Below are positions 4,421-60,506 of a DNA stretch of 64,000 nt, piece by piece. The stretch comes from Candidatus Woesearchaeota archaeon. Its GTDB lineage: Archaea > Nanobdellota > Nanobdellia > Woesearchaeales > GW2011-AR9. Positions within the stretch are counted from its first letter, which is position 1, and each line of letters opens with the position of its first letter. The translations under genes were made by a program, and so were the position numbers. A model generated the notes under the pieces. That model saw nothing but the letters and a program-made list of their open reading frames with translations. It was not told the origin of the DNA and searched no databases. Location: assembly GCA_018655525.1 (NCBI GenBank), contig JABIJM010000020.1, positions 1 to 64,000 of the forward strand. The letters are read 5' to 3'.

Positions 4421-5320
4421 ATGAAAGAGATTATAGATTTAAAAAAGTACTTTCCTAAGATAATTGTCCCAAAGATAGGTGTTGATAGAGAATTAATGAG
4501 GATAGAAAATAATGACAACTATATTCTCTCCTGTACCTTTGCAAAAAAGAAAATAACAATTCCAAAGAGAATAATTCTTAATGCGAATGATTTTATTGCA
4601 ATTGGCCTATACCTAGCTGAAGGATATACAAAAATTAATAGGAAGAAGAAATATTACCACGATGGTTCTGTTACTTTTGTAGGGAGCTATAAAGAGATGA
4701 TTAATCCCATTTGCGATTTATTAGAAAAATTAAATATTTCTAAAGAGAAACTTAAGTGGAAAATTGGAATAAATGTTAACATTAAGAGAAAATTTACAGA
4801 GATTATTAAATACTGGGTTAAGAATACAAATTTGAGAGATGAAAATCTTAGAGCTAAATCAGTTTATTATACAGGAACATTAGGAAAACCCACTATAAGA
4901 TCAGGAATAAATGGTTGTGTCCATATTTTCTTTCCTTCGGTTGTGTTTAGGTCTTTCTTCCTCAATTTTATTAATTTAATTTTTCAAAACAGCCTTAATA
5001 ACAAGAATATAAAAGAACTTTCTTTAATTTTAAAAGGATTCTTTGCGGGAGATGGAAGTGTAAATTATTGTAAAAAGTATAATAGAAGGTTGATTGATTT
5101 TGCTTCAAATAATCCAGAACTGATTGGCAAACTTAAAGAAGCCCTTTCTATTATAGGAATAAGTTCAATAAAAGAAACATACCCTGAACTAGGTAAATCA
5201 AATAACAAATCCCTAAGAATATATAACAAAAAAGATTTTCTAATTTTACAAAAAAATGAAATCCCAAATTTACTTAGTTATAAGAAAAAAATATTTGATG
5301 AATTAATGAATAGCTATTAA
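4421..5320 (+). CDS. LAGLIDADG homing endonuclease
   Basis: The product is 299 residues with two LAGLIDADG-type helices: AIGLYLAEGY near residue 60 and LKGFFAGDGSV near residue 207. The acidic E and D that bind Mg2+ in each half are present, as in single-chain double-motif enzymes. The protein is very rich in Lys, Ile and Asn, more AT-biased than its neighbours, which fits mobility. It is free-standing, 83 bases downstream of an intron-containing tRNA. Some LAGLIDADG proteins act as intron maturases rather than nucleases, so activity is not proven. Confidence 0.85.
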   Translation: MKEIIDLKKYFPKIIVPKIGVDRELMRIENNDNYILSCTFAKKKITIPKRIILNANDFIAIGLYLAEGYTKINRKKKYYHDGSVTFVGSYKEMINPICDLLEKLNISKEKLKWKIGINVNIKRKFTEIIKYWVKNTNLRDENLRAKSVYYTGTLGKPTIRSGINGCVHIFFPSVVFRSFFLNFINLIFQNSLNNKNIKELSLILKGFFAGDGSVNYCKKYNRRLIDFASNNPELIGKLKEALSIIGISSIKETYPELGKSNNKSLRIYNKKDFLILQKNEIPNLLSYKKKIFDELMNSY

Positions 5321-8169: not shown

Positions 8170-8610
8170 ATGAACAAAATTCAATCTTTAGCTGCAACGG
8201 TTGCATTATTATTCAACGTAGGGTGTATGACCCCTCTGGAACGTTACACTCATGAAGTTGGACATAAACCCGAGACTATTGAAGAACTTAAGAGCTATGG
8301 TAGATGGAGTGAAGGTCAAGGAGAATATCATGAAGCGATTTCTGCATATAAAGGAATCTTACAAAGATCAAATGACAATAATGATATTGCAAGGTTAGAT
8401 TTAGGTCGTGCATACATCACATGTTTAAAGGGTATTAGAAGACAGATAAGAGGTTCTTTTCCAATACGATCAAGGCCAAGTTTAATATATGAAGGAACAA
8501 AAGTTTGTATGGAGGCAGAAGAATTTATTAAAACACTTCCAGACACAAAGGAACTCTATCCTTTTGGAGAAAATATTAGATATCATTGTGATCACATCAA
8601 AAATCCTTAG
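8170..8610 (+). CDS. Putative lipoprotein with TPR-like helices
   Basis: The product is 146 residues. A short signal peptide ends in a lipobox-like LLFNVGC, with the Cys at about 19 as the lipid attachment site. The mature part has helical pairs with the TPR-like spacing GQGEYHEAISAYKGIL. It is probably anchored outside the cytoplasmic membrane. The function is unknown. Its 3' end overlaps the convergent DUF483 gene by 14 bases. It is one of at least seven signal-peptide lipoproteins in this window. Confidence 0.65.
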   Translation: MNKIQSLAATVALLFNVGCMTPLERYTHEVGHKPETIEELKSYGRWSEGQGEYHEAISAYKGILQRSNDNNDIARLDLGRAYITCLKGIRRQIRGSFPIRSRPSLIYEGTKVCMEAEEFIKTLPDTKELYPFGENIRYHCDHIKNP

Positions 8611-17783: not shown

Positions 17784-18467
17784 ATGAAAAAAATCATTAG
17801 TATATTACTCTCATTAGCACTTTCTGGATGTTATCCCGCAGGAATGTATTCATCCCATGAACCTCAAGAATGTAAGAATGTAAAATATGAAGAAGTCGTT
17901 CAAAACGCAAAGCATGCAAATTTTGGTTTGAAGTATCATATTACAACACTTGTTCCAGAAAATAATTTAGAAAAATGTACTTACCGATCTCCTGTCACAA
18001 AAGCAGTTATGATTAAAGATGGACTTGCTCGAAAGATTGAGATGATAGATGTAGGTGCTAAGGTTTCAAATTGGAAAAGGGATCATCATCCCGCTGGTAT
18101 AATTTATGATGATGAAATGGCCGCAGATTGTACATATAATCCTCATAGATATCGTGATTGGTTTTGTAAAGGCACCAATGGAAAAAATTACACCTTACCA
18201 AATAATAACAATAAAGTTACTGAAGGAGAACTAATTACGCTTGCAGTAAAAACAATTGATTGTTTGAAAGGTAAAGGAAGTAATGTAAAGATTGATTCAA
18301 ATGAAGATATAACAAGCTGTATACAAACACCAAAAGGCAAATTACCACGACATAATCCATTAATTCCATCTGATCCTGGATTTCGTAGAGGACAAGGTCA
18401 TTTCTATAAAAAGATGGATTATGGATTTTGTTATGATGCTCGTGTTCATTGTCGTTTTTCAAAATAG
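17784..18467 (+). CDS. Cysteine-rich putative lipoprotein
   Basis: The product is 227 residues. MKKIISILLSLALSGC is a textbook signal peptide with a lipobox, and Cys16 is the anchor. The mature chain has about eight further cysteines, consistent with disulfides outside the cell, plus many His and Tyr. No domain recognised. GATAAATAGATA just upstream is AT-rich but not a clear TATA. It is one of the group of exported, lineage-restricted proteins here. Confidence 0.65.
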   Translation: MKKIISILLSLALSGCYPAGMYSSHEPQECKNVKYEEVVQNAKHANFGLKYHITTLVPENNLEKCTYRSPVTKAVMIKDGLARKIEMIDVGAKVSNWKRDHHPAGIIYDDEMAADCTYNPHRYRDWFCKGTNGKNYTLPNNNNKVTEGELITLAVKTIDCLKGKGSNVKIDSNEDITSCIQTPKGKLPRHNPLIPSDPGFRRGQGHFYKKMDYGFCYDARVHCRFSK

Positions 18468-22384: not shown

Positions 22385-22948
22385 ATGAAAATAAATAAAA
22401 TTATAGGATATGTAGTAGCTGGATTAGCAGCATTAACTATTTCAAGTTGCGAAAGGGAATATACCCCAGCAAATCCAGTAGTACATGGAAATGTTGTTAC
22501 CCATGAAGATTCAAATGGAGGAATCGCAATATATCAATTTCATACTCGGAGAGATGAAGAAATCAAAGGTGCGACATTTATTAAACAATTCAAAAATGAT
22601 CGTTTCGGTCAAAAAACTTTAGCAGGTCACTATCAAGATTTAAACAAGAACGGAAAAGTTGACGAGGGAGATTTTTGCTTTGTATCCCAAGGAGAAAATT
22701 GTCAAACACCTCTTGAAGATCGTTTTGTATGTTCTACACATATTCTTAGAACAGTTCATACAGATCATCCTATGAAATACGATGCATCAAACCAATCAGA
22801 AGGTCTTACCGAAGATGGGACATATAAAACGTATACCACAGCAGGAATGTGGCATTTGCGAAATGGAGTAAGAACGCCTCATCAATCTATTGAACAAGCA
22901 AAAGATTGTATTAAAGAATGTCCTTCTAATTTATTAGAAAAACTTTAA
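22385..22948 (+). CDS. Putative lipoprotein with EF-hand-like calcium loop
   Basis: The product is 187 residues. The signal peptide ends AALTISSC, with Cys22 as the likely lipid anchor. Near residue 84, DLNKNGKVDEGD is a canonical 12-residue EF-hand/dockerin-type Ca2+ loop. Further cysteines suggest disulfides. It is followed after 15 bases by the VWA-OmpA lipoprotein gene, so both are probably one operon. TTTATAAAGG about 30 bases upstream is the promoter. The function is unknown; context suggests a cell-surface role. Confidence 0.65.
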   Translation: MKINKIIGYVVAGLAALTISSCEREYTPANPVVHGNVVTHEDSNGGIAIYQFHTRRDEEIKGATFIKQFKNDRFGQKTLAGHYQDLNKNGKVDEGDFCFVSQGENCQTPLEDRFVCSTHILRTVHTDHPMKYDASNQSEGLTEDGTYKTYTTAGMWHLRNGVRTPHQSIEQAKDCIKECPSNLLEKL

Positions 22949-22963
22949 ACTAATTTTAAAAAA

Positions 22964-24280
22964 ATGACATACAAAAATATAATTAAACATGCAATTGTAA
23001 GAACTGCAATTGGACTAACAGCCCTCTTAGGGGGATGTGATAAGGATAATGATATACCAGACGTACCTATTCCAACAATTCCTGCAGAACCTATAGAATC
23101 TCTTAAGGTTATTGGACCTATTCCTCCAAAAACATCTAAGAAATTACCAATTAAAGACAATTGTGAAGCATTAGATGTAATGATTATGTTTGATAACACT
23201 AGTTCAATGGGACCATATATTAATCAAGCTAAACAAAAAGGAATGGAAGCTCTAAACACCATACGTTCAACTTATCCAGATTCACGAATTGCAATTTCAA
23301 CAGTAGCCGATTTCGGGCATGGAGATATACCCTACGAATTAAAAACAGGATTTACCACAGACACTTCAATAGTTGGACAAGCAATTAATTCAATTAAGTT
23401 ATGTGGTGGTGGAGATGATCCTGAAGCATATTCTCATGCTATACAAAAGGCTTCAAAAGAAAAATGGAGACCAGACGCATATCGTCTTGTGATTCTTGTA
23501 GCAGATTCAGTTGCTCATGATAAAAATAAATTAAAGGCAAATGTTAAAAATTCAAATGAAACACTTGCCGTACTTACTGCAAATGAAGTGAATATCTCTT
23601 ATTGGAAAAGTGTAACACCATTTACTCTTCCTTTAGCATCTCATAAAAATTTAAATTCCTTATTATTACGTTCAATTATGATTTCATGTGGAGATTATCC
23701 AAAAATAGAATATGATACCGCTAAATGGGATCTAGATTCTGAAGATAAAAAAGAACTTGATGGGTTAGTAAAAATGCTTAAAAATAAAAAAAATATTGGC
23801 ATCCAAGTTGACGGCCATACAGATTCTGTAGGTGCAAATTTCAGAAATGATATCCTTGGAATTAGGAGAGCAAAAGGAGTCGCAGCATACCTGAATTCTA
23901 AAGGAATTAAAACTGCTGCTGCAAGTTATGGAGAAGTAAAACCTCTTTGTACTACTGAAACAGAAGATTGTAAACAACTTAATAGAAGGTCACATTTATA
24001 TCCAGTACTTCTATCACCAAAATCATCTAAATTTCCTTCAAAAATGGGAAACTTTTATTTAGCAAAAATTGATGGAGATACCGCAACATATTCATTCATT
24101 CCTACTTCTAGTAAACATTTTGGTTCTGTAATAGGGAATATGTTCAATAAAAAAGATCAAGCAAATGTATTCCATACTGTAGGACATCGTAATATTTCAT
24201 TAGATGCAGATGGAAATAACTCTGCTGGAGACCATATCCGTAAGTTTGAACCAGTATATTTGAAAGCTCGTTCAAATTAA
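22964..24280 (+). CDS. Lipoprotein with VWA and OmpA-like (peptidoglycan-binding type) domains
   Basis: The product is 438 residues. The signal peptide ends LTALLGGC (Cys25). A VWA domain follows (about 70-235) with a MIDAS-like DNTSS at 77-81. An OmpA/MotB-type domain (about 255-345) has VDGHTDSVG at 283-291, NDILGIRRAKGVAAYL, SYGEVKP and LNRRSHLY. In bacteria the Asp of GHTD and the Arg of the xRRA helix bind diaminopimelate in peptidoglycan, and both are kept here. Archaea lack murein, so this domain is out of place. A role in attachment to a bacterial partner is inferred. Confidence 0.85.
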   Translation: MTYKNIIKHAIVRTAIGLTALLGGCDKDNDIPDVPIPTIPAEPIESLKVIGPIPPKTSKKLPIKDNCEALDVMIMFDNTSSMGPYINQAKQKGMEALNTIRSTYPDSRIAISTVADFGHGDIPYELKTGFTTDTSIVGQAINSIKLCGGGDDPEAYSHAIQKASKEKWRPDAYRLVILVADSVAHDKNKLKANVKNSNETLAVLTANEVNISYWKSVTPFTLPLASHKNLNSLLLRSIMISCGDYPKIEYDTAKWDLDSEDKKELDGLVKMLKNKKNIGIQVDGHTDSVGANFRNDILGIRRAKGVAAYLNSKGIKTAAASYGEVKPLCTTETEDCKQLNRRSHLYPVLLSPKSSKFPSKMGNFYLAKIDGDTATYSFIPTSSKHFGSVIGNMFNKKDQANVFHTVGHRNISLDADGNNSAGDHIRKFEPVYLKARSN

Positions 24281-24292
24281 TTTTAGTAAAAT

Positions 24293-25210
24293 TTACCGAT
24301 TCATAAATCCAAGAAATTTCAAAGGATTTACCACTCTTCCTTTGTAATAAATATGTAAATGTAAATGAGGGTTTGTTTTGTAAGGATTTGCTGTTAATCC
24401 TGATAATCCTAATTTGGTATTGTAATTTACTTGTTGTCCTACTTTGACATTAACTCTGCTCATATGTAAATAGAGATGTACATAATCTCCAGATTTAACC
24501 TTCACTGCTTTTCCATTCCATTTCATCCACCAGCCAGTTTTAATTACAACTCCAGGAAGAATGGGATATAAAGGCGTACCAACTTTTGCATAAAAATCAT
24601 GACCTTTGTGCCTTCTACTACCTCTATTAGCACCATACAAATCAAACCGACAAGTATAATGTTGACCATTTTTCTGACTATAATTTTGTGGACTTTCTTG
24701 AGAACACCTATGAAGAACAGGTAATTTTTTTCCACCAAATGGACTTTGAAAACCTTTATTCTTGAAATTAGTAGTATTTGTTTTTTTCTTATTATCTACA
24801 ACTTTTGTAATTTTACGTTTTAGAATTACTTTAGGAATCATAATTTTCTGTCCATTCCTTACTAAAGATGGTTTTTTTAAACCATTAAATTTTGCAAGTT
24901 TTTGATAAGCTTCATTAATATCAGTTACACCATAAAACCTCAAAAGTGTTGAGATATCACAATAATGTTGTACTATTGCACCAAGATTTCGTCTGTGGGA
25001 TTCACTTGATTTTACAATTACAATTATAACATCTTCATTTTTTGCAAGTAATTCAAAGGGAAAACTTGCCAAAGTAGCACTCAATCCAGAAAGACCAACT
25101 AATTTAAGAAATCCTCTTCGACTCAGTTCTTTCGTAGCATCTACATCTGGAAGTTCAGATCCATGATATTTACCTCTTGGAAGGAACTTTTTTAGAAACT
25201 CAAAAACCAT
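24293..25210 (-). CDS. Tat-exported LysM + M23 (LytM) metallopeptidase
   Basis: The product is 305 residues. LSRRGFLKL at 29-37 is a twin-arginine signal, so it is exported folded. A LysM-like domain (about 60-125) ends NGQKIMIPK. The M23 domain (about 160-300) has the complete zinc/catalytic set: H201xxxD205, H249 in LYLHMS and the HLHLH motif at 282-286. Family members cut peptide bridges of bacterial peptidoglycan. It is convergent with the VWA-OmpA gene. TTTATAAAGG upstream is shared with the divergent gene at 25309. It is expected to be catalytically competent. Confidence 0.88.
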   Translation of the reverse strand: MVFEFLKKFLPRGKYHGSELPDVDATKELSRRGFLKLVGLSGLSATLASFPFELLAKNEDVIIVIVKSSESHRRNLGAIVQHYCDISTLLRFYGVTDINEAYQKLAKFNGLKKPSLVRNGQKIMIPKVILKRKITKVVDNKKKTNTTNFKNKGFQSPFGGKKLPVLHRCSQESPQNYSQKNGQHYTCRFDLYGANRGSRRHKGHDFYAKVGTPLYPILPGVVIKTGWWMKWNGKAVKVKSGDYVHLYLHMSRVNVKVGQQVNYNTKLGLSGLTANPYKTNPHLHLHIYYKGRVVNPLKFLGFMNR

Positions 25211-25308: not shown

Positions 25309-26742
25309 ATGTTAGAAAAATTGGTGAGTGATGAACGACATGAAAGTTTAGCTAGATATCACCCTTCTTCAGAAGAAGTATTTACAAATAATGACAGTTT
25401 TGATTATATAAAAAATGAAGTTCTAAATAGTGATAATCAAAAAGGTTGGAAAAAGGCTGGATTAAAAGGATTAAATGGAGCAGCTCATGCAACATATGGA
25501 TTACTTGAAGGAGTTTCACGTGTAACTGAAAGTGGGTTACGATTAGCAGGAAAAGCAGTTGAATATCTTGGAAGAAATGCAGATGATAAACTCCAAGCAA
25601 TTCAAACAGATCAATATGATGATGAGATCAATTGGCCAAAATCAATTTCACAAAATATTAGAAGTTTATATGGAAGTTTAAAAGAGGGTTTTCTTAGCGT
25701 AACTTCAACAAAAGTAAGAAACAATTTAATGGTAGGATTAGCATTGGGGATTGGACTTTATAGTGGATCTAAAATGTTACCAAATATTGAATTTTCAGGA
25801 GATGAAGATAAAATTGCAGTAGTAACTCCAGAATCATCTTTGCCTAAAACTCCAAAACCATATCCTCTTAGCCCATCTTCACCTCATAAACCTGACCCAT
25901 ATAGTACAAGTCACGGTGTTATCAGTGTAGATGAACTTGTAAAAACTTATGGAAAAGATGACGTTAGATTTGCACAAGAGACAATTAAAAGAGGAGCAAA
26001 ATTAAGAGAGCAAAACAAAACTCGTTGTCAAAGTCCTAAAGACATTTCTAATAAATGTAAAACTTTACGAGGATTACAAGCAAAATATCCAGGAAATTAT
26101 ACTGCTCATTTATTTGGTTTTTTTGATGATAACAGAGAGGTTGCAAACATCACGATGTTACGGGATGCTTACCAAAATGTAATGAAAGAAGCAAATAAAA
26201 AAGGCGTAGAATTACCATTTCATTTCGTTGCTTCAACATTAGCAAAAGAAGGTCATAGCTTAGATGTTGATAATTATAAAAGTAGCAGTACTAATGGATT
26301 TGCACAGTATGGGTTAGATACATTCGGAGATAATTATCAAACTTCAAAGAGTTTACGAACATTATTACCTAAGGGTTTTAATAAGAAATTTACGGCCCAT
26401 GCAGCAACCAATGAACTCGGTCAAGTAGTAAAAACAGCAAATTTCAATTCAAAATCTGATGCATTTCATGCATTTGTTGCAGAATTAGCATGGCGACAAA
26501 TGAACTTTACAAAAAAAGCAAAGTGTGATAGTATGCCTGAAGATCAGAAGCTGTTCTTAACTTATGAATTATACAACTGTGGACAAAATTCACTTAATAA
26601 AAAATTAAGAGCAAAGAATACGTGTAAAACTTTAGAAAAACATTTCAAAGATAAATCATTAAATAAATGTCAAGGAAATGCGCATGTTGCATTAAAAAGC
26701 GCATTATGGTTAGATCAAATGAAAGCGTTTCCAGAATCTTAA
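25309..26742 (+). CDS. Membrane-anchored protein with possible lysozyme/transglycosylase-like domain
   Basis: The product is 477 residues. A cytoplasmic-looking helical region (1-135), one hydrophobic segment (about 138-152) and a Pro-rich linker (165-200) precede a C-terminal extracellular domain with five cysteines. In that domain FVASTLAKEGHS (Glu314), then SSSTNGFAQYGLDTFGDNY, resembles the E-S-G..Q signature of SLT/lysozyme-fold enzymes. The match is weak but the context (M23 peptidase, OmpA-like domain) supports it. It is divergent from the M23 gene with back-to-back TATA boxes. Confidence 0.5.
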   Translation: MLEKLVSDERHESLARYHPSSEEVFTNNDSFDYIKNEVLNSDNQKGWKKAGLKGLNGAAHATYGLLEGVSRVTESGLRLAGKAVEYLGRNADDKLQAIQTDQYDDEINWPKSISQNIRSLYGSLKEGFLSVTSTKVRNNLMVGLALGIGLYSGSKMLPNIEFSGDEDKIAVVTPESSLPKTPKPYPLSPSSPHKPDPYSTSHGVISVDELVKTYGKDDVRFAQETIKRGAKLREQNKTRCQSPKDISNKCKTLRGLQAKYPGNYTAHLFGFFDDNREVANITMLRDAYQNVMKEANKKGVELPFHFVASTLAKEGHSLDVDNYKSSSTNGFAQYGLDTFGDNYQTSKSLRTLLPKGFNKKFTAHAATNELGQVVKTANFNSKSDAFHAFVAELAWRQMNFTKKAKCDSMPEDQKLFLTYELYNCGQNSLNKKLRAKNTCKTLEKHFKDKSLNKCQGNAHVALKSALWLDQMKAFPES

Positions 26743-29413: not shown

Positions 29414-30103
29414 ATGAACCTAGGTAAAATTAATAAAATTCCCTTAAATAATATCACTGCATATTTAGCTGGTGTAATTATTGGAGATGGAAATGTCTCC
29501 AATGCATCAAAATCTAAAAAAGATAAATCAAAAGATTATAGAATTACAATTGAAGTTACTGATCTTAATTTCTTAATCAATGTTGAAAAATTAATTAAAT
29601 CAATTATAAAAACAAAAAGTACAGTAACAAAAAGATCAAAAATTAAAGAAAAAAGGAAACAATTATATTATTTTCAATTTAGAAATAAAAGTTTTTATTA
29701 CTTTCTTACAAAAGATTTGGAGATTCCAGCTGGAAAAAAGTCAAATATTGTTTTTGTTCCTAATAAAATATTAAAATCTAATGGATTATATCCTTTTTTT
29801 CTTGCTGGGGTATTTGATACAGATGGAGGAATTAGAGGAAAGACTCCTGGATTTACTTCAGCAAGTAAAAAATTAATTGATGGATTAAGTTTTATTCTAA
29901 ATGAACTTAAAATCACCCATTATTTAGATTCATGGGTTAATAAGAGATATAATCAAAGATATTATGGAATTAAGATATCGGTAAAAGATACCGACAAGTT
30001 TTTAAATGGGTTACCATCATGTAACAAAGAGAAACTTGACAAAGTTCTTGTCCATGTGGACGTGCCGGAGCGGTCAAACGGGCTGGAAGGTCTTCCGATA
30101 TAG
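29414..30103 (+). CDS. LAGLIDADG homing endonuclease running into tRNA-Leu
   Basis: The product is 229 residues with two motifs: AYLAGVIIGDGNV near residue 17 and FFLAGVFDTDGGI near residue 133. Both carry the catalytic acids. The last 16 codons are the tRNA-Leu leader and 5' half, and the stop codon lies within the tRNA intron. The natural C-terminus has therefore been lost or fused at the insertion point. It shares the 38-bp upstream element with the enzyme at 4421, but the protein is shorter and divergent. It may cut a tRNA-gene target or act as a maturase (inference). Confidence 0.85.
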   Translation: MNLGKINKIPLNNITAYLAGVIIGDGNVSNASKSKKDKSKDYRITIEVTDLNFLINVEKLIKSIIKTKSTVTKRSKIKEKRKQLYYFQFRNKSFYYFLTKDLEIPAGKKSNIVFVPNKILKSNGLYPFFLAGVFDTDGGIRGKTPGFTSASKKLIDGLSFILNELKITHYLDSWVNKRYNQRYYGIKISVKDTDKFLNGLPSCNKEKLDKVLVHVDVPERSNGLEGLPI

Positions 30104-32719: not shown

Positions 32720-32995
32720 TGCTTTCTTAAGATACTTCCCTACTGTTGCTCCTTGATTCAATGCAACCAAGGATAAATATCCAGCAACAACTGCACCTCC
32801 AGCAAGTGTAGCTGCCATGCTACCATTTAAAATTTTATCAGATAAATCGGGATATTGGTGATAAAATTGTGTTTGTTCAATTGCACCATTTAAATACCAT
32901 AAAGACAAAGAACCTAAAAAAGGAGTTAATTTAAATTGTATCAAAGAATCATAAAATTTATTTTTCTCTTGTTTTGTTAAGTTATCTAGTATCAT
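32711..32995 (-). CDS. Small membrane protein (94 aa)
   Basis: The protein begins MILDNLTKQEKNKFYDSLI. Two hydrophobic stretches (about 28-42 and 60-82, GGAVVAGYLSLVALNQG) suggest a membrane hairpin. It is the last gene of a three-gene operon: its ATG overlaps the upstream stop (TAATG) at 32995. No family recognised. The 3' end overlaps prs by 9 bases. Confidence 0.55.
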   Translation of the reverse strand: MILDNLTKQEKNKFYDSLIQFKLTPFLGSLSLWYLNGAIEQTQFYHQYPDLSDKILNGSMAATLAGGAVVAGYLSLVALNQGATVGKYLKKALF

Positions 32996-33600
32996 TAGAA
33001 ACCTGGTCTTATAAATCCTTCATACATGCTTGTTTTCACACAAGACCTATACCTATTATCTGTTCTATTATCTTTGATTTTTTTGAAACCACACATCCTT
33101 TTAGAAGATTTAATACATTCTTTTTCTAATTTTGATGTTGGTCCAAAATGCAATACACTTTCACTATTTTTACGCATATTTTGAACAGTATTCACATAAC
33201 TTCTACATGCATTTATTGTGAATTCGTCACTTTGATTTTTGTAATGATTTTTTACTCTTGGTCGTTTTTTAGATTTTATAAATAACGGAGGAATTACAGC
33301 TCTTCGCTTCTTTCCAATAGAAACATTTGCATCTCTACCTGTTGCATAACCATTGTCCATTTGGCCTAACCCATGAATTCTTCCATAACCATTTCCTGAT
33401 TGATAGCCTAAGCCATCACCAAATTTTGGTGTTGACGGATTCCAAACTGGTGCTTGTTTTGCAATATAAGTTACATTAGGTTCTTCATGAGTTACAGCTG
33501 GTTTCTCAATAGATGTTTGTTTAACTTGTACTGGTGCACAAGCAATAGACATAGCCACTGCAAGTGGTGCTAATTTATGTAGTATATTTGTTAGTATCAT
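32995..33600 (-). CDS. Putative lipoprotein, basic and glycine-rich
   Basis: The product is 201 residues. MILTNILHKLAPLAVAMSIAC is a lipoprotein signal (Cys21). The mature part has a Gly/Tyr-rich segment (GDGLGYQSGNGYGRIHGLGQ) and then basic KKRRAVIPPLFIKSKKRPR and several Cys. Function unknown. It is translationally coupled to 32711 and lies 5 bases after the 33606 gene, so three products are co-expressed. Confidence 0.6.
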   Translation of the reverse strand: MILTNILHKLAPLAVAMSIACAPVQVKQTSIEKPAVTHEEPNVTYIAKQAPVWNPSTPKFGDGLGYQSGNGYGRIHGLGQMDNGYATGRDANVSIGKKRRAVIPPLFIKSKKRPRVKNHYKNQSDEFTINACRSYVNTVQNMRKNSESVLHFGPTSKLEKECIKSSKRMCGFKKIKDNRTDNRYRSCVKTSMYEGFIRPGF

Positions 33601-60221: not shown

Positions 60222-60506
60222 ATGAGTTTATATGTAAGCATTGTAAAAAAAGCAATTGTTATGGGAGGGCTTATTGCCATCCTAAGTGGTTGTGATTCTG
60301 AAAGTGTCAGTGGTTGTTATCAAGGTTCCGGTGAGTGTCAGCCTGTAACAGAAAAGAATGTTTGTCACACACAGGAATTAAGTGATTGTCTTGATAATCA
60401 TGTTAAAAGTTGTGGAAGTGATTCTGAGTGTATTTCTCTTTGTAAGAAGAAATGTAGTGAATATATCCTCCCTGGCTGTGAGTTAACACCTTACGGTGTT
60501 CAATAA
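60222..60506 (+). CDS. Small cysteine-rich lipoprotein
   Basis: The product is 94 residues. The signal peptide ends LIAILSGC (Cys24 anchor). The mature 70 residues have ten cysteines (for example SCGSDSECISLCKKKC), so probably a compact disulfide-knotted exported domain. No family recognised. TTATTAATGGG upstream is AT-rich. It is convergent with the gene at 60514, separated by 7 bases. Confidence 0.65.
   Translation: MSLYVSIVKKAIVMGGLIAILSGCDSESVSGCYQGSGECQPVTEKNVCHTQELSDCLDNHVKSCGSDSECISLCKKKCSEYILPGCELTPYGVQ

Follow-up and report, generated by a model that had tools for sequence, protein, structure and literature searches.

An open reading frame in the window, the 64,000-nucleotide stretch of DNA from a Candidatus Woesearchaeota archaeon analysed here, encodes a predicted lipoprotein in which a VWA domain is fused to an OmpA-like domain. 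The Asp/Arg pair that contacts diaminopimelate (DAP) in bacterial OmpA domains is, judging by alignment, kept as Asp287 and Arg302. The protein may well be a lipid-anchored adhesin that binds DAP-type murein and acts together with murein hydrolases on or against bacteria, a reading to which about even confidence is given. The domains, the fold, the binding residues, the gene neighbourhood, the recurrence in other archaea and the absence of a Mur ligase match were computed; that the protein is exported and lipidated, binds murein, works with the hydrolases and targets bacteria is inferred. The features of the locus are listed in Table 1.

Table 1. Features of the VWA-OmpA locus (window coordinates)
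Feature	Position	Strand	Remarks
Small lipoprotein	22385..22948	+	ISSC lipobox, EF-hand/dockerin-like loop; 15 bp upstream of the VWA-OmpA gene
VWA-OmpA lipoprotein	22964..24280	+	438 aa; ATG start, TAA stop; analysed by Pfam, PDB sequence search, AF2 and Foldseek
Signal peptide with lipobox LLGGC (Cys25)	22964..23038	+	Read off the sequence; lipidation presumed
VWA domain, aa ~70-196	23171..23551	+	Pfam VWA_4, E 2.8e-8; MIDAS-like D77-N-T79-S-S81 and GGGDDPE; low AF2 confidence
OmpA-like peptidoglycan-binding domain, aa ~248-345	23705..23998	+	Asp287 at 23822-23824; Arg302 at 23867-23869
M23 murein endopeptidase	24293..25210	-	Pfam M23, E 7.1e-22; convergent, 12 bp from the VWA-OmpA gene
477-aa protein	25309..26742	+	One predicted TM segment, then a C-terminal lysozyme/transglycosylase-like domain with an invariant Glu-Gly (E314)

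Domain structure and binding residues

The fusion of the two domains in one chain, claimed in a sequence-only reading of this DNA, was borne out, both Pfam matches being above the cut-off. OmpA (PF00691) was matched at aa 252-341 with E 3.1e-13 and 50.3 bits (cut-off 27.2), and VWA_4 (PF25106) at aa 73-195 with E 2.8e-8 and 34 bits (cut-off 27). The MIDAS motif D77-x-T79-x-S81 was present when the residues of the VWA domain were checked. The short hydrophobic N-terminus ends in the lipobox TALLGGC25, so that the lipid-anchor signal proposed for the same chain was found as well; lipidation itself is presumed. An extension of about 90 aa follows the OmpA domain at the C-terminus. No catalytic domain was found in the protein by Pfam search, and a search of the whole 963-kb genome showed its OmpA domain to be the only one. 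Compared with the Pal equivalog model TIGR02802, the protein scored 62.5 bits against a cut-off of 125.35 and is thus not Pal. Calcium-loop-like motifs (DLNKNGKVDEGD, DADGNNSAGD and DKNDDGRIASAE) recur in the small lipoprotein encoded upstream, in the C-terminus of the VWA-OmpA protein and in a protein from another locus (L078:9992-10948), all of them predicted to be secreted.

The similarity of the OmpA domain to its bacterial counterparts is far beyond chance, and the matches of a PDB sequence search were OmpA-family and Pal chains. In A. baumannii OmpA, Asp271 and Arg286 are reported to bind diaminopimelate (PMC5974059; PMC12108004), and by alignment their equivalents are Asp287, in the GHTD motif (aa 284-287), and Arg302, in the 'RA' pair of the helix N295-D-I-L298-G-I-R301-R302-A303. 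Alignment to solved OmpA/Pal-type chains also assigned the arginine of this pair to Arg302. The GHTD motif and the RRA helix had been named before as the seat of the binding residues, with either Arg301 or Arg302 as the arginine; the aspartate and the helix were correct, and of the two arginines only Arg302 is equivalent. D287, N295, R302 and R341/R342 were invariant in an alignment of 59 sequences, the invariance of GHTD, N and RA being partly built in by the picking of sequences with that pattern.

Structure prediction, which had been suggested as a check, agreed with the assignment. The OmpA fold was predicted by AF2 with a pLDDT of 94-98 over residues ~250-350. In Foldseek it superposed on Pal (2hqs, 1oap and 4g4w) with a TM score, normalised by target length, of 0.87-0.90 and an rmsd of 1.1-1.7 Å. 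For 3td5, a complex of A. baumannii OmpA and a murein peptide, the TM score was 0.80 and the rmsd 1.4 Å; the pocket was judged by fold match and residue alignment. A helix/strand pattern was seen in the VWA part of the model at a pLDDT of mostly 35-68, a low confidence which follows from an input alignment of OmpA rows only, with no VWA rows. A joint alignment of VWA and OmpA (A5) was discarded, as the VWA domains fell on OmpA columns.

Genomic context and neighbouring genes

The genome is 93.6% complete, and the VWA-OmpA gene is located on one of its contigs, 83 kb long, at a distance of 22 kb from the edge. The genes around the locus are archaeal, including TruD, SRP54 and class I LysRS (assigned from translations), and a CDP-archaeol synthase is also encoded in the window (Pfam E 8.5e-32). 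The GC content of the gene is 0.33, the same as that of the window. A bacterial contig included by mistake during assembly could be suspected from the bacterial families OmpA and M23 and from the location of some other OmpA matches of the survey on contigs shorter than 4 kb (L002, L003). Given the depth of the gene in its contig, its position between SRP54, TruD, class I LysRS and CDP-archaeol synthase and the uniform GC content, such contamination is scarcely credible and was rejected. A Mur ligase central domain was not matched in this genome by a search that was positive in 12 of 14 control genomes.

Lipobox-like N-termini (GC, AC) were noted on more small proteins of the window (8170-8610, 17784-18467, 32995-33600 and 60222-60506) with little or no family match, and the genome seems to be rich in lipoproteins. 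Two free-standing open reading frames resemble LAGLIDADG homing endonucleases in their translation (29414-30103 and 4421-5320).

The small lipoprotein gene is probably co-transcribed with the VWA-OmpA gene; the dockerin match of its product was not significant (Pfam E 0.19). The M23 protein contains the zinc motifs HKGHD and HLHLH (HxGxD/HxH) and a Tat-type signal (TIGR01409, 19.6 bits, cut-off 16.7), together with a weak LysM-like segment that was not significant (E 0.21). It is encoded by the only M23 gene of the whole genome, which adjoins the only OmpA gene. For a single M23 gene to be either direct neighbour, the probability by chance is about 0.2%, based on about 1,100 genes as estimated from the genome size.

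No match to the 477-aa protein was found in Pfam or, by profile, in the PDB. Its family includes proteins from three further genomes of the order (G173, G259 and G225) and one phage-contig protein; in the alignment a Glu-Gly is invariant, and the motifs GLxxF and TxxxxN-G are conserved. The best PDB matches of a low-confidence model (pLDDT 50) were to MltE, with a probability of 0.85 and E 0.37, and the protein is provisionally regarded as lysozyme-like. The phage relative has the same lysozyme-like domain and is encoded a few genes from a terminase-like gene on contig IMGVR_UViG_3300010160_000047 (L133:3566-4450). These proteins may represent an undescribed family of putative hydrolases common to phages and archaea. 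In addition, an SLT transglycosylase with an N-terminal hydrophobic stretch, predicted to be secreted, is encoded on another contig of the genome, C2 (E 1.6e-17).

Related proteins in other archaea

A full-length relative of the VWA-OmpA protein was found in none of 288 genomes of the order, in which VWA halves and OmpA halves occur apart. The same result was obtained for a genome-contig collection, where one OmpA half from Saprospiraceae was the only match, and for viral contigs, and in phage and plasmid collections nothing matched the query over 80% of its length. OmpA matches were present in 22 of the 288 genomes, with the DAP-binding Asp lost in most (GFASKEG), and M23 genes in 130; the hydrolases therefore do not need the VWA-OmpA protein. 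Across the phylum the distribution is patchy (19/371). Large secreted or membrane proteins of other genomes of the order (L013, L014, L017, L020 and L029) carry OmpA-like domains with the DAP-binding Asp replaced (GFASKEG type). Four of the five Asp-less domains entered in a tree formed one group (99/95), pointing to a distinct archaeal group.

Elsewhere in the phylum sample, eight archaeal genomes were found to encode secreted chains with both domains, all with OmpA before VWA, the reverse of the arrangement in the window. Two of the carriers, G237 and G013, belong to the same order as the window genome. The remaining six (G303, G296, G431, G378, G488 and G484) belong to another order of the class, 103 genomes of which gave six strong matches. 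The Arg was invariant in an end-to-end alignment of six of the eight OmpA-VWA proteins, and the Asp was kept in seven of the eight, the exception being G013 (GYAGPIG). A Mur ligase match was likewise absent from seven of these genomes and present in G013 (E 1.2e-10).

A murein enzyme is encoded directly next to the OmpA-VWA gene in five of the eight genomes: M23 in three, a lytic transglycosylase in one and a beta-lactamase/DD-peptidase-like protein in one. The M23 gene is located 41 bp downstream on the same strand in G303 and is convergent with no gap in G296; in G488 an M23-like gene (E 5.6e-41 against the profile of the other three) overlaps divergently and is truncated where the contig ends. 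In G237 the gene of a lytic transglycosylase lipoprotein (PDB 9udh, E 1.5e-25) lies 30 bp upstream on the same strand, and in G484 a Beta-lactamase2/DD-peptidase-like gene (PF13354, E 3.9e-9) follows directly downstream, also on the same strand. The OmpA-VWA lipoprotein gene of G013 is divergent from the gene of a 720-aa protein without Pfam match (L079:7005-9167), and no murein enzyme was found in the stretch examined around the gene in G431 and G378. When the window is included, a predicted murein enzyme adjoins the gene in six of nine cases, representing four family-level groups (f1, f70, f90 and f91), where the class of murein enzymes was broadened after the data had been seen and three of the adjacency cases come from one family. 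The M23 neighbours of G303, G296 and G488 all fall in family f90 and may go back to one event. With between 0 and 4 recognised M23 genes in each of the OmpA-VWA genomes, adjacency by chance is expected at about 1% or less per genome.

In a tree of OmpA domains, built from about 110 columns and weakly resolved, the eight archaeal OmpA-VWA proteins formed one clade (99/99). The OmpA domain of the window fell outside this clade, on a long branch in a starred group with the clade and four phage-contig sequences. This position and the reversed domain order place the protein outside the archaeal OmpA-VWA family (A9). The VWA subtype of the window protein (GGGDxPE) is also different, and taken together the three differences tentatively suggest a separate fusion with the same outcome.

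Proposed function

After export, the VWA-OmpA protein would be held by a lipid anchor at Cys25 and exposed on the surface of the archaeal cell. The OmpA domain would grip the DAP-containing stem peptide of bacterial peptidoglycan by means of Asp287 and Arg302, and its VWA domain, with a MIDAS-type metal site, would bind a protein partner or help to assemble a surface complex. With the M23 endopeptidase encoded next to it, the lysozyme-like protein and the SLT transglycosylase of contig C2, it could make up a set of tools with which the archaeon clings to a bacterial wall and breaks it open, whether to attach to a host, to prey on bacteria or to kill them. The present evidence does not distinguish between attachment, killing and the release of nutrients. 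A murein-directed role is credible because the gene lies beside murein-hydrolase genes and similar pairs occur in other archaea. The tether between archaeal membrane and murein that the sequence-only reading had proposed is plausible in this form, but not with murein of the archaeon's own. In an archaeon without a detectable Mur ligase the murein must be foreign, i.e. bacterial, and the tether would be one between organisms. Most of what is known of OmpA domains comes from diderm bacteria, whose murein is covered by an outer membrane. For binding, the wall would therefore have to be exposed, as in DAP-type monoderms, or to be laid open by a breach made beforehand, for which the hydrolases alone would not suffice.

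OmpA-like domains can serve other ends in archaea, the Asp having been lost in G013 and in most of the order. The domain could have been captured from bacteria and now bind to the archaeon's own envelope, be it the S-layer, a glycan or a protein, as structural support. The varied architectures of the Asp-less domains in the same order, the loss of the Asp within the OmpA-VWA family in G013 and the patchy distribution across the phylum are all in line with such a role. It is nevertheless rather unlikely, as the window protein keeps both binding residues and NxxLxxxRA, which neither neutral drift nor a new ligand would require, murein enzymes are repeatedly adjacent, and no Mur ligase was found in the genome. 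The tight gene pairing, with same-strand neighbours in G303, G237 and G484, would also suit a protein that localises or activates the M23 and lysozyme-like enzymes on the archaeal surface. Murein binding would then merely position the complex, for nutrient release or killing and not for attachment, and archaeal hydrolases with binding modules do kill bacteria (PMC12352652). Physical contact between the proteins would have to be presumed, and the M23 gene of the window is on the opposite strand and hence not co-transcribed; this explanation is considered unlikely.

A recent acquisition from bacteria or phages, without any particular role in the archaeon, would agree with the tree position of the OmpA domain, not within the archaeal OmpA-VWA clade but in a loose grouping with phage and bacterial domains, and with the lack of a full-length relative in the 288 genomes of the order. 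The GC content, equal to that of the window, speaks against it, and the lipoprotein format, the intact reading frame and the pairing with M23 argue for a function, making an acquisition of this kind highly improbable.

The murein-binding adhesin remains the preferred reading. In a wider and more doubtful form, several small host-dependent archaeal lineages might independently have built a lipid-anchored adhesin for DAP murein from OmpA and VWA domains, which with murein hydrolases would be an attachment and entry device for bacterial hosts and would explain in molecular terms how archaea live on bacteria. Few surface proteins have been proposed by which DPANN-type archaea might use bacteria as hosts or prey. 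Should the protein bind bacterial DAP murein through the two residues of its known ligand-binding pocket, these archaea could be tied to bacteria by mechanism and not by co-occurrence.

Comparison with known systems

VWA and OmpA are also encoded together in the FtsZl1/VWA/OmpA gene clusters, as separate proteins of an operon for membrane remodelling that also contains FtsZ-like and GTPase genes (PMC2875224). In the window the two domains are fused, and none of the genes of that operon was seen. Genes of GH23 lytic transglycosylases have been described in Woesearchaeota and read as a sign of predation in the part of PMC9723730 consulted. Both cases concern small archaea with murein-cutting enzymes, whereas a binding or tether protein is not described in that part of the paper. 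A separate non-catalytic OmpA-VWA lipoprotein beside murein enzymes was not found in the literature searched, the coverage of which is incomplete.

The protein shares its lipobox, the OmpA fold and the DAP-binding Asp/Arg pair with Pal and the OmpA C-terminal domains of diderm bacteria. It differs from these by the added VWA domain and the C-terminal extension of about 90 aa, and by its occurrence in an archaeal cell in which no murein pathway was detected and an outer membrane is not expected. Archaeal peptidoglycan hydrolases that kill bacteria have been published, and Nanoarchaeota are rich in them (PMC12352652). As is proposed for the present case, proteins of murein-less archaea are aimed at bacterial murein; in both, M23 domains occur and the distribution is patchy. 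Only chains with both binding and catalytic domains were considered in that survey, the text of which does not mention OmpA, and the VWA-OmpA protein does not combine the two. In contrast to those hydrolases, the binding domain of the window is carried by a separate, non-catalytic protein that is predicted to be lipid-anchored.
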